Assembly (NCBI RefSeq): GCF_009649845.1
Contig: NZ_WJIE01000003.1
Coordinates: 806,001 to 870,000 of the forward strand
From: Polyangium spumosum
GTDB lineage: Bacteria; Myxococcota_A; Polyangia; Polyangiales; Polyangiaceae
Direction: 5' to 3'
Length of the DNA stretch: 64,000 nucleotides
Shown: in pieces, positions 32,403 through 37,097 of the stretch
Layout of the letters: the number at the start of each line of letters is the position of its first letter
How positions within the stretch are numbered: the first letter of the stretch is position 1
The notes under the pieces: generated by a model
Told to the model about the DNA's origin: nothing
Database searches by the model: none
Seen by the model: only the letters and a program-made list of their open reading frames with translations
Program-made: the position numbers and the translations under genes

Positions 32403-33026
32403 ATGAGGTCCGAGCTCGTCGGGCTAGAAGGCCGCTCGACACGGGAAGGTATGTACACGAACGCGGGGACTTTGTCGTTCGACCTCGCCGAAGGGCTCGT
32501 GCGGCTCGGCGGAGAGGCGCGCCTCGTCGTGCCCGCCTCCGCGCTGATGGCGCTCTGGGGCGGCGCGAGCCCGGCCGCGCGCCGCGTCTTCGCGCGCGCC
32601 CTCGGCGAGTCGATCGGGCGCGCCGCGGAAAAACGCCTCGCCGCCGAGGGCCCGGACGCGCCGCGCGGGATGCTCGACGCGAGCCCCGAGGCCGCGCTGT
32701 CGGAGCTCGCCGCCGCATGGGCGCTCGCCGGGCTCGGCGCGCTCGACATCGAACGATGGGGCCGCGCGCTCGTGTTCGTCGTGGCAGGTTCGCCGCTCGG
32801 CGGAGACGGCGACGAGCTCTGCGAGATCGCCCTCGAAGGCGCGCTCGCCACGGCGAGCGGCAAGGGCGTGCGTGTCGTGCGGCTCGAGCGCGTGGAGTCA
32901 CGCGCGCGGTTCTTCGTGAGCAGCGCTTCGGCGACGGCGAGGATGCGCGCCGAGCTCGCGCGAGGCACGGTGTGGGCCGAGGTGCTCGCCGAGCTCGACC
33001 GGCCGGCCCCACGAGGTGACGCTTGA
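32403..33026 (+). CDS. Protein of unknown function
   Basis: 207 aa, probably soluble and cytoplasmic. Visible features are an amphipathic helical centre (ARRVFARALGESIGRAAEKR) and an alternating alpha/beta pattern (LDIERWGRALVFVVAGSPLG, GKGVRVVRLERVESRARFFV). The overall plan of a helix after LVVPASALMALW is a little like V4R/heme-NO-binding modules, but I would not assign it. A TTGA overlap couples it to the next gene. Confidence 0.65.
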   Translation: MRSELVGLEGRSTREGMYTNAGTLSFDLAEGLVRLGGEARLVVPASALMALWGGASPAARRVFARALGESIGRAAEKRLAAEGPDAPRGMLDASPEAALSELAAAWALAGLGALDIERWGRALVFVVAGSPLGGDGDELCEIALEGALATASGKGVRVVRLERVESRARFFVSSASATARMRAELARGTVWAEVLAELDRPAPRGDA

Positions 33027-33541
33027 GCGACGACGACCAGCCCTTTTCCGGCTCGCCCGAAACGAAGGTCTCGAAGTCCACGCCGGACCTCGTGCCGCCC
33101 GCTTCGTCACGGCAACCCCGCTCGATGAAGGACGAGCTGCCGCTCGACGACGCCCTGCCCGGCATCCTCGACCCCGAGGCCGAGCCGAGCCCCGAGTCCG
33201 AGGAGCGAGCGCCCGCCTCGCGCAAGGTCGCGAGCGTACGCGCCGCCGACGTGCGCGGCGACGAGGGCGTCGACGACTACTCGACCTGGGAGATCGACGG
33301 CCTCACGGCAGAACCGCCGCCCACGCGCAAGGCCGGCTGGCTCGGCGTGGAGCGAAAGGCGCCGGTCGAGGAGGCGCGCGTGCTCGTCGAGCAGAGCTCG
33401 TCCACGGGGCCCGAGCACGTGCGGCGCGTGTTGCCGGAGGACGAGCTCGTCGCGCTCGGCTCGCCCGCACGCGCGCACCACGGCGCCACGTTCGGCGAGC
33501 TGCTCGACGCGACGCTGTCGCTCGGCGAGGACGAGGCGTAG
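33023..33541 (+). CDS. Low-complexity acidic protein of unknown function
   Basis: 172 aa from a TTG start that overlaps the preceding stop (TTGA), with GAGGTG upstream. The sequence is rich in Glu, Asp, Ser, Pro and Ala and is mostly predicted disordered (SGSPETKVSKSTPDLVPPAS, EPSPESEERAPASRK). A short ordered-looking segment lies at the end (VRRVLPEDELVALGS, GATFGELLDATLSLGE). It is probably a partner or regulator of the previous gene product because the two are coupled. No known domain. Confidence 0.55.
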   Translation: MSDDDQPFSGSPETKVSKSTPDLVPPASSRQPRSMKDELPLDDALPGILDPEAEPSPESEERAPASRKVASVRAADVRGDEGVDDYSTWEIDGLTAEPPPTRKAGWLGVERKAPVEEARVLVEQSSSTGPEHVRRVLPEDELVALGSPARAHHGATFGELLDATLSLGEDEA

Positions 33542-33610
33542 CTCAGCCTCACCCCCCCTCGACGGGCATGCAGAGCCGTGCGAAGGTCCGGCCCACGCGT
33601 TCTTCGCATG

Positions 33611-33694
33611 GAAGGGTGCAGCGACGGTCGCTGCAGGATCGAGGATGGTCGGGCCGCCATCCGAGCCGGCGAATCCGCCGGCGAGGGATGAGGC
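33611..33694 (+). promoter_or_regulatory. Three-hairpin leader of nhaA, candidate nhaA-I-type (Li+/Na+) riboswitch
   Basis: Three hairpins lie directly upstream of the nhaA start: GCAGCG/CGCTGC (33619-33624 with 33630-33635, loop ACGGT), GGATGG/CCATCC (33644-33649 with 33658-33663), and CCGGCG/CGCCGG (33667-33672 with 33677-33682, loop AATC). The purine-rich GAGGGATGAGG that follows holds the ribosome site and ends 1 nt before ATG. From memory this resembles the nhaA-I RNA motif, which lies upstream of Na+/H+ antiporter genes and was later found to sense lithium. Pairing was done by eye. Confidence 0.6.
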
Positions 33695-35116
33695 ATGTCG
33701 ACCACACACGCACCGGGGCGGAGCCCCCTTCCTTCGACGCCGCCCGAAGCCTGGGAGCCGCTCTTGCGCCTGACGCGGCTCGCGGGCCGGCCGCTCGAGC
33801 GGTTCCTCCACATCGAGGCCGCGAGCGGCATCCTGCTGCTCGTCGCCGCGGCCGTCGCGCTCGTCTGGGCGAACTCACCCTGGGCGGAGAGCTACCAGCA
33901 CCTCTGGCACACGCCGCTCGGGATCCGCGTCGGCACGTTCAGCTTCGAGCGCTCGCTCGAGTGGTTCGTCAACGACGGGCTGATGGTGATCTTCTTCTTC
34001 GTCGTGGGCATGGAGATCCGGCGCGAGATCCACCACGGCGAGCTCTCCGAGTGGCGGCGCGCGGCGCTGCCCGCCGCCGCGGCGCTCGGCGGGATGATCG
34101 CGCCCGCGGCGCTTTACCTCGCCTTCGCCGGCGCCCCCGCGATCCGCTCGGGCTGGGGCGTGCCCATGGCGACGGACATCGCCTTCGCCGTCGGTATCCT
34201 CACGCTGCTCGGAAAACGCGTCCCGGCCGCGCTGCGCGTGCTCCTGCTCGCGCTCGCCGTGATCGACGACCTCGGGGCCATCGTGGTCATCGCGCTCTTT
34301 TATTCGAAGGGCATCTCGGTCTCGGGGATCGTGCTCGCCGCGGCGGGCTTCGCCGGGGTGTTCGCGATGCAGCGCTTCGGCGTGCGGCAGAAGCTCGTGT
34401 ACATCGTGCCGTCCGTGGTCGCGTGGGCCGGCATCTACATGGCCGGCGTGCATCCGACGATCGCGGGCGTGATCGTCGGGCTCGCGACGCCGGTGCGCGC
34501 GTGGCTCGGGCCGGACGGGTTCATGGTCGGCATCCGGAGCGAGCTCGAGCAGCTCGCGAAGGCCCCGGCGGACGCGCTCTCCTCGCACGCGCTCGCGGAG
34601 ACGCTCCGCCACGTGGACCGCGCGCGCCGCGAGGCCATGTCGCCCGCCGAGAGCCTGATCACGATGCTGCATCCGTGGGTGGCCTTCGGCATCATGCCCG
34701 TCTTCGCGCTCGCGAACGCGGGGGTCACCGTCGCGGGGGGATCGCTCGACGACGCCTCGCAGCTCGTGATGATCGCGGCCGCCGTGGGTCTGCTCATCGG
34801 CAAGCCGCTCGGCGTGCTCGCCATGTGCTGGGTCACGCTGCGCCTGCGGATCGCGACGTTGCCCGTGGGCCTCGGCGGGCGGCACCTCGTGGTGCTCGGC
34901 GTCGTCGCGGGCGTGGGCTTCACGATGGCCTTGTTCATCGCGCAGCTCGCGTTCGTGGACGCGAAGCTGCTCGCCGCGGCGAAGCTCGGCGTGCTCGCGG
35001 CGAGCGGCGCCGCGGCGGTCCTCGGGCTCGTCCTCGGCCGGCTGCTGCTCGCGCCGGCCCCGACGCCGGGCGAGGCGCGGACGGCGGATGAGGCGGAGAG
35101 CTCGACGGAGGTGTAA
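33695..35116 (+). CDS. nhaA: Na+/H+ antiporter NhaA
   Basis: 473 aa, longer than E. coli NhaA (388 aa) because of an N-terminal cytoplasmic extension of about 45 residues and a hydrophilic tail. It exchanges Na+ or Li+ for protons at the inner membrane and controls pH and salt. Landmarks: FFFVVGMEIRREIHHGELS, GWGVPMATDIAFAVGIL, and the ion-binding Asp pair in LALAVIDDLGAIVV. The membrane segments continue to GVGFTMALFIAQLAF. The leader immediately upstream is a likely riboswitch, so expression probably responds to cations. The CaCA exchanger gene follows 20 nt later. Confidence 0.96.
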   Translation: MSTTHAPGRSPLPSTPPEAWEPLLRLTRLAGRPLERFLHIEAASGILLLVAAAVALVWANSPWAESYQHLWHTPLGIRVGTFSFERSLEWFVNDGLMVIFFFVVGMEIRREIHHGELSEWRRAALPAAAALGGMIAPAALYLAFAGAPAIRSGWGVPMATDIAFAVGILTLLGKRVPAALRVLLLALAVIDDLGAIVVIALFYSKGISVSGIVLAAAGFAGVFAMQRFGVRQKLVYIVPSVVAWAGIYMAGVHPTIAGVIVGLATPVRAWLGPDGFMVGIRSELEQLAKAPADALSSHALAETLRHVDRARREAMSPAESLITMLHPWVAFGIMPVFALANAGVTVAGGSLDDASQLVMIAAAVGLLIGKPLGVLAMCWVTLRLRIATLPVGLGGRHLVVLGVVAGVGFTMALFIAQLAFVDAKLLAAAKLGVLAASGAAAVLGLVLGRLLLAPAPTPGEARTADEAESSTEV

Positions 35117-35136
35117 ATGTCGAGCCCGGTGGTGGA

Positions 35137-36114
35137 ATGACGAACCCGTGGATTCAGCTCGCCGGCGGCGGCGTGCTCCTCTACTTCGGCGCCGAGTGGT
35201 TCGTGGGCGGCGCGTCCGCCCTGGCCCTCGCGCTGCGCGTGCCGCAGATCCTCGTCGGCCTGACGGTCGTCGCGTACGGGACGTCGGCGCCCGAGGTGAT
35301 CGTGGGCGTGCAGGCGGCGATCGACCAGCACGGCGAGGTGGCGCTCGGGAACGTCATCGGCTCGAACATCGTGAACATCGGGCTGATCCTCGGCGTCGCC
35401 GCGCTCATCCGGCCGGCGCGGGTGGACGGGTCGCTACGCCAGCGCGAGCTGCCGATGTTCGTGGCGAGCGCGCTGCTCGTGCCGCTGCTCTTGCTCGACG
35501 GCGCCGTGCGCACCTGGGAAGCGGCCGGGCTGCTCCTCGTGGCCCTCGTCTACACCGGGTGGATGATCCGCGCCGCGCGCTCGGCTTCGATCGTCGCCGA
35601 GGCCCGCGCGGACACGCTCGCCACGGAGCGGGCCGCGGACGAGGCGGGCGCGCCGAAGCCCGGCGGCGCCCTGCGCGCGGCGGCGACGGCGGCGGTTGGT
35701 TTGCTCGTCCTGCTCGTCGGCGGCGACATCTTCGTCGACGGCTCGGTCGCGGTCGCGCGCGCGCTCGGGATGAGTGATCGGCTCGTCGGCCTGACCATCG
35801 TCGCGGTGGGGACCTCGTTGCCGGAGCTCGTGACGGCGGTGATCGCGGCGCGACGCGGAGCCTCGGACATCGCCATCGGCAACGTCGTGGGCTCCAACAT
35901 CTTCAACACGTTCCTGTGCCTGGGCGCGGCGGCGCTCGCGGGCCCGGTCGCTGCCCCGCTGGGGACGCTCGGGATGGATCTCGCGGGGCTGCTCGTGATG
36001 ACGGCGCTCGGGGCGGTGTTCATCCGGAGCGAGCGGACGATCTCCCGCCTCGAGGGCGCCTTCGCGGTGGGTCTCTACGTCGCGTTCACGGTGGTGACCG
36101 TGCTGCGGGGCTAG
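35137..36114 (+). CDS. CaCA-family calcium/sodium antiporter (YrbG type)
   Basis: 325 aa with about ten membrane segments in two homologous halves. The two alpha-repeat signatures are clear: LVGLTVVAYGTSAPEVIVGV with LGNVIGSNIVNIGL in the first half, and LVGLTIVAVGTSLPELVTAV with IGNVVGSNIFNTFL in the second. Such proteins swap Ca2+ for Na+ or K+ at the inner membrane. The acidic residue in each GTS-[AL]-PE is conserved, so it should be active. It starts 20 nt after nhaA and would be made from the same message, fitting a cation-stress module. Confidence 0.93.
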   Translation: MTNPWIQLAGGGVLLYFGAEWFVGGASALALALRVPQILVGLTVVAYGTSAPEVIVGVQAAIDQHGEVALGNVIGSNIVNIGLILGVAALIRPARVDGSLRQRELPMFVASALLVPLLLLDGAVRTWEAAGLLLVALVYTGWMIRAARSASIVAEARADTLATERAADEAGAPKPGGALRAAATAAVGLLVLLVGGDIFVDGSVAVARALGMSDRLVGLTIVAVGTSLPELVTAVIAARRGASDIAIGNVVGSNIFNTFLCLGAAALAGPVAAPLGTLGMDLAGLLVMTALGAVFIRSERTISRLEGAFAVGLYVAFTVVTVLRG

Positions 36115-36119
36115 TCGTC

Positions 36120-37097
36120 CTAGCCCTTCTTCGGCGGCTGCTGCGGCGACATCGTCCGCGCCATGAACGAGTAGACGTCCATCTTGTCGCGCGGCGTCTG
36201 CCCCTTCTCGATGAGCTTCTGCGCGATGTCGTCGACGAGCGCGCGCATGCGCTCGTACGTGGCGGCGCTCGGCGCGCGCTCGTACTTGAGCGGGAAGCTC
36301 ATCATCGCCGCCTGCTTCTCGTAGAACGAGGGCTTCACGAAGACGTGGCTCTCCGGCTCCATGAGCGCCGAGAGCACCGTCACGAGCGGCCACGTCGCGA
36401 GCTTGGCCTTGCCGAGGACCACGACGAGCCGATCGAAGCGCGCGTCGTACGCGTCGGCGCCGTAGAGCAGATCGCGGATCGCCTCGGCGACGTCCTTGTC
36501 GTGCTCGGCCGCCATCTTGCTGAACGGGATGATGTCGCCGAGCGGGTGGAGCAGGCCCGTCGCGGCCTTGTGGATCGTGCGCACGTTCGCCACGATCTCC
36601 GTGAAGGCGCCGGCCTGGATCTGCTTGTCGAGCACGTCCCGCGCGAGCAAGTCCTTCGCCGTGGCCATGGCGATCGCGCGCGTGGCCTTGGCCTTCTTGG
36701 CCGTCGGGTTCGGGTCCTCGACCCCACGCTCCTCCTTGGCGAAACGCGCGCTCGTGAAGCCCCCCGGGAAGATCTCGAGGAAGAGCGAGAACTGCGCGTC
36801 GAAGTTCGGCAAGACGGGCGCGACGGCCTTCTGCTTCGGCTTGCCCGAACCCGACCTCGACTCCTTGAGCCCGCGGACCTTCTTCTCGAGGGCCCGCGCC
36901 TCCGCGGCGCCGAGCGTGACCGGCTCGAGCTTCGACCAGAAGGCCTTGGCGATCGAGTGGCTCATGCCGTCCTCGAAATCATAGAAACGCTTGTCGTCGC
37001 GCTCCTCGGAGAGAAAGCCGAGGCCCCACTCGGGGCAGCCCGGGTGCTTGACGATCATCGGCGCTTCGGCGGAGGCAGGGGGGACGTTCACGGTCAT
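36120..37097 (-). CDS. Protein of unknown function, DUF3553-like N-terminus
   Basis: 325 aa, soluble. The first 40 residues (MIVKHPGCPEWGLGFLSEER, KRFYDFEDG) resemble the small SH3-like DUF3553 domain, which follows a HP-x-x-PEWG-x-G pattern and ends in a strand. The rest is helical and Lys/Ala-rich (KKAKATRAIAMATAKDLLAR) with a conserved-looking segment (FDRLVVVLGKAKLATWPLVT) and ESHVFVKPSFYEKQAAMMSF. I do not recognise this part. It is the last gene of the leftward set from the MerR-type regulator, 49 nt after its neighbour. Confidence 0.65.
   Translation of the reverse strand: MTVNVPPASAEAPMIVKHPGCPEWGLGFLSEERDDKRFYDFEDGMSHSIAKAFWSKLEPVTLGAAEARALEKKVRGLKESRSGSGKPKQKAVAPVLPNFDAQFSLFLEIFPGGFTSARFAKEERGVEDPNPTAKKAKATRAIAMATAKDLLARDVLDKQIQAGAFTEIVANVRTIHKAATGLLHPLGDIIPFSKMAAEHDKDVAEAIRDLLYGADAYDARFDRLVVVLGKAKLATWPLVTVLSALMEPESHVFVKPSFYEKQAAMMSFPLKYERAPSAATYERMRALVDDIAQKLIEKGQTPRDKMDVYSFMARTMSPQQPPKKG

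Follow-up and report, generated by a model that had tools for sequence, protein, structure and literature searches.

The riboswitch class nhaA-I corresponds to the published Li+-I riboswitch, whose members bind Li+ and are activated by it (White et al. 2022, PMC9646797). This article placed the class in the Alpha-, Beta-, Gamma- and Deltaproteobacteria; it words the control of ribosome access as a speculation for most Li+-I members and reports that the aptamer of P. monteilii prefers Li+ about tenfold over Na+. Na+-sensing variants of nhaA-I (Na+-II) are known from Deltaproteobacteria. They have intrinsic terminators, precede genes of unknown function and carry a C at the key position (position 54 of D. 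propionicus) that is a U in most nhaA-I RNAs (PMC9646797).

The window analysed here is the whole stretch of 64,000 nucleotides from Polyangium spumosum. A sequence-only reading had placed a candidate nhaA-I-type riboswitch of a myxobacterium in it and had named a scan with the nhaA-I and DUF1646 covariance models as the check. The host, of the genus Polyangium, fits this reading, and the scan confirms the candidate directly before nhaA. Positions 33614-33662 (+) match the Rfam model RF03057 (nhaA-I) end to end over model positions 1-55, with 54.8 bits for a cut-off of 37 and no base pair marked as non-standard. This is the sole Rfam match above its cut-off in the window (E 4.6e-08). When positions 33000-34200 were scanned with lax filters, the E-value of the match was 8.6e-10 and the only other models were two miRNA models (E 3 and 6), far under their cut-offs. 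The DUF1646 model gave no match on these positions, even at E 10, and a DUF1646/Na+-I identity was rejected on this ground. The aptamer is composed of the hairpins P1 (GCAGCG-ACGGU-CGCUGC, 33618-33634) and P2 (GGAUGG-UCGGGCCG-CCAUCC, 33643-33662), and the ATG of nhaA is located 32 nt past its end. The three hairpins and the purine-rich stretch that had been described before nhaA are all at the place given for them, but the aptamer model takes in only two of the hairpins, the third being localized between the aptamer and the ribosome site. A three-hairpin aptamer was rejected, as the nhaA-I model ends at P2.

The region is G+C-rich and the third hairpin taken alone is unremarkable, as would be expected of hairpins formed by chance in such DNA. 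However, the score of 54.8 bits, the single copy of nhaA-I in the whole Polyangium genome (10.76 Mb, 99.7% complete), which adjoins nhaA, and the presence of nhaA-I in 6/6 genomes of the genus (own included) make a chance origin extremely improbable. Over positions 33600-33715, the fold is 4.0 standard deviations under the mean of dinucleotide shuffles, none of the 200 shuffles being equally stable. More broadly, nhaA-I was detected in 42 of 108 genomes at the level of the family and in 22 of 282 across the phylum; four of the six genomes of the genus contain two copies. The element is a genuine member of the known riboswitch class nhaA-I/Li+-I, and its ligand would be Li+ by analogy with the characterised members.

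The gene nhaA (33695-35116, +) codes for a Na+(Li+)/H+ antiporter of 473 aa that matches PF06965 with 457 bits (cut-off 23.5) and TIGR00773 with 397 bits (cut-off 254); this PF06965 match is the only one in the genome. After a gap of 20 nt, the probable second gene of the operon (35137-36114, +) codes for a calcium/sodium exchanger of the CaCA family of 325 aa (PF01699; TIGR00367 with 228 bits, cut-off 180), and the genome contains one match to this protein. Neither of the two upstream ORFs of this strand (32403-33026 and 33023-33541) is matched in Pfam or NCBIfam at E 0.001. A sigma-70 promoter scan found none, a type of scan that says little for this bacterial group. A single terminator-like site was detected in positions 33400-36400 (0.6 expected by chance), none being present between the aptamer and nhaA. 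A terminator platform was rejected, since this site, at 34282, is inside nhaA.

Myxobacteria were formerly classified in the Deltaproteobacteria. Na+-sensing variants have been described in this class (PMC9646797), and the element could be such a variant (Na+-II) of the same fold and not a Li+ sensor. The absence of a terminator-like site in the leader and the nature of the gene, nhaA, argue against Na+ sensing, which we consider rather improbable. The window also retains the core GGUCGGGCCGCC; this core is common to 116 of 117 places, a collection gathered by that core (one mismatch allowed) and therefore uninformative on its variation. The collection initially comprised 122 distinct places, of which five false ones were dropped by eye.

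Downstream of the aptamer, the third hairpin P3 (GCCGGCG-AAUC-CGCCGGC, 33665-33682), defined from the sequence and from the 18 distinct rows of the alignment A1, is part of the proposed expression platform. It is followed by the ribosome-site region GAGGGAUGAGG (= GAGGGATGAGG; 33683-33693), assigned from the sequence and the folds. The proposed switching strand is the 3' arm of P2, CAUCC (33658-33662). In the minimum-energy fold, the free RNA is predicted to be OFF: bridging the third hairpin, CAUCC pairs with GGAUG (33686-33690), and the AUG of nhaA is left unpaired. Positions 33683-33685, on the 5' side of the SD, are also unpaired in this OFF fold, which counts against the switching model. 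When P1 and P2 are held formed, the mean unpaired probability of positions 33683-33693 goes from 0.37 to 0.66. Both hairpins are held in this ON model; with P2 alone held, the minimum-energy fold loses P1. The 3' arm of P2 is thus predicted to have two mutually exclusive pairings: one inside P2, which is the ON state, and one with the ribosome site, which is the OFF state. The free ensemble has an energy of -55.9 kcal/mol, against -43.7 kcal/mol with P1 and P2 held. Because this difference of 12 kcal/mol is too much for the weak binding of an ion, switching at equilibrium appears implausible and a choice during transcription would be required. In the free fold, the 5' arm and the loop of P2 (33646-33655) also pair with positions 33692-33694 and 33698-33704, which correspond to the bases just before the AUG and to the first codons of nhaA (UCGACCA).

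We estimate at about 0.85 the probability that the element is a translational Li+-I (nhaA-I) riboswitch, for which we infer the Li+ ligand, the direction of switching, the co-transcriptional choice and the co-regulation of the CaCA gene. In the absence of ligand, the 3' arm of P2 would pair with the ribosome site of nhaA across the third hairpin, and translation would be low. Li+ bound during transcription would hold P2 together and keep its arm occupied, leaving the ribosome site open; NhaA would then be made and Li+ expelled. As the aptamer is transcribed first, the choice between ON and OFF would be made while the RNA is synthesised. The CaCA product, encoded just downstream, would probably rise too, by a shared transcript or by translational coupling.

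The translational switching model is supported mainly by the comparison across relatives. Among the 117 places, the 101 with a usable start were folded; clustering reduced them to 74, of which 73 had a usable leader length. Start codons were assigned according to a rule, with some certainly incorrect. Arm-leader pairing is 0.49, against 0.24 with shuffled leaders (74 of the 101 places surpass the mean of their own shuffles, and 52 have values over 0.5), and restricted to 4-16 nt from the start it is 0.27 against 0.06, with 46 of the 74 clusters above. Because any ribosome site is rich in purines, a second control consisted of 129 SD-bearing leaders taken from other ORFs in the same loci. The arm pairs at 0.28 with the ribosome-site stretch and at 0.10 with the SD leaders of other genes, 40 of the 73 dereplicated places being above. 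These values are 0.43 and 0.09 for the 31 places with a recognisable SD (26/31 above); by subtraction, 14 of the remaining 42, where no SD is recognisable, are above. The aptamer might also act through another output, for instance RNA decay or premature termination, the third hairpin and the ribosome site not switching with P2. This would agree with the 33 of 73 clusters that are not above the control mean, and with the window's own arm-leader pairing of 0.80, which taken alone lacks significance, since 9 of 40 shuffled leaders attain this value. However, the partners of the arm lie mainly 4-11 nt upstream of the start codon, with a summed probability of 86.5 against 26.8 in the control leaders, and the leader is devoid of terminator-like sites; another output is consequently judged unlikely. 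A good part of the class seems to be under selection for the switch platform, with the clearest signal among the places that have a recognisable SD; in the 33 clusters mentioned above, the platform is not seen.

The alignment A1 contains 20 rows chosen by hand among 26 prepared references. The third hairpin is paired in 91.7% of its cells and displays changes on both sides at 2/6 pairs, a number reached by 65 of 500 shuffles. Covariation in the platform is weak, as the count of pairs changed on both sides is reached by 82/500 and 65/500 shuffles. The OFF helix with P3 pairs 78.7% of cells and P2 with P3 pairs 95.8%, in rows that align poorly near the ribosome site. Covariation is a poor probe of the OFF helix, since the arm of P2, which forms its 5' strand, hardly varies.

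The gene directly downstream is nhaA in 59 of the 117 places. Among the 58 places without nhaA, at least 18 have, directly after the riboswitch, a gene for a small and apparently membrane-bound protein (105-135 aa), detected with a hand-written motif and sharing GCL.RLYWM..GN ... VRY.DIR...G.T....PATM.DWRRY (for example L100:3790-4119(-), L102:4525-4881(+), L069:4843-5199(-), L053:964-1320(+) and other rows of A2). No consistent Pfam or NCBIfam match was obtained with the full-length rows, the best E-values for single rows being 0.0092 and 0.093. It could be a protein of the lithium or sodium response, shared by several phyla and as yet undescribed. In two relatives of the family, the riboswitch precedes a gene for a subunit of the NADH-dehydrogenase/Mrp-antiporter type (L014:1-1476(-) and L046:1682-3052(+); PF00361 with 189 and 203 bits). 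Two or three nhaA-I places are found within a few kb on one strand in L005 and L085, and on both strands in L121 and L132; those of L005 (genome G177) are around 846 and 1534 on the minus strand. A strict pattern recovered 64 stretches from named genomes, and the titles of their records include Acidobacteria, Planctomycetota, Verrucomicrobia, Lentisphaerae, Kiritimatiellae, WOR-3 and others. According to these titles, which mostly designate MAGs and are taken as given, the motif reaches phyla beyond the Proteobacteria named in PMC9646797. Under the title Comamonas sp. KCTC 72670, one record contains a leader of the myxobacterial kind (L063:5322-5403) and an NhaA 77% identical to that of the window; this record possibly bears a wrong label or is of mixed origin.

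Five of the six genomes of the genus, that of the window among them, have CaCA after nhaA (L141 to L144, not L145). The second copies of the riboswitch in the genus (L068, L072, L077 and L117) precede another nhaA, and no CaCA match was found there within 3600 nt or before the locus ends. Among 20 hand-picked stretches, 18 hold nhaA, followed by CaCA in five cases, and the same order was observed in L061, L081 and L088. In L101 the genes after the riboswitch are CaCA and nhaA, in this order; G177 carries a riboswitch that precedes CaCA (L005, L139) and another that precedes nhaA (L025); in L130 the riboswitch is followed by a Na+/H+ exchanger-TrkA gene and by CaCA. Gene order in these relatives supports a functional link of the riboswitch and nhaA with CaCA, and renders a shared control of nhaA and CaCA plausible. 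Gene order and the relatives favour the initial proposal of a control common to both genes. However, a switch that works by masking the ribosome site has a direct effect on nhaA alone, so this proposal is only partly supported. Exchangers of the NCLX type, which exchange Li+ and Ca2+, have N50, D54, N209 and D213 (NCX_Mj numbering) instead of T, E, T and E (PMC8366772). In the alignment, the CaCA protein of the window has the motifs GTSAPE and GTSLPE as in NCX_Mj, with an N at the position of D240. An NCLX-like CaCA carrying Li+ was rejected on the basis of these motifs of the NCX_Mj type, and Li+ transport by the CaCA protein itself is therefore not supported. In the set of papers searched, none joined riboswitch, nhaA and calcium exchanger. 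In Polyangium and some other myxobacteria, the lithium riboswitch might govern both nhaA and a CaCA Na+/Ca2+ exchanger and couple lithium stress to calcium handling, a proposal that we hold tentatively and at somewhat less than even odds.

These results place an RNA of the lithium-sensing type in a defined myxobacterial operon, where the response to lithium might include calcium exchange as its second arm, and provide a model of the ON and OFF states that can be tested base by base for what PMC9646797 words as speculation. Compared with known systems, the DUF1646 motif (Na+-I, PMC9337991) has a consensus model called similar to nhaA-I in PMC9646797, whereas the window stretch has no DUF1646 match at E 10. 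Unlike NCLX (PMC8366772), the CaCA protein of the window has ion-site motifs of the NCX_Mj type. The Na+-II variants share the same aptamer fold, but the published ones have terminators and genes of unknown function (PMC9646797), whereas the window has nhaA and a leader without terminator-like site. The closest system is Li+-I (RF03057, PMC9646797), with which the window shares the full-length match, the two hairpins, the conserved GGUGC/GCAGG and P2 loop core, the position before nhaA and the leader without terminator-like site. It differs from Li+-I by the CaCA exchanger gene after nhaA, the words "calcium" and "exchanger" being absent from the main text of PMC9646797, and by the G+C-rich third hairpin located between the aptamer and the ribosome site.
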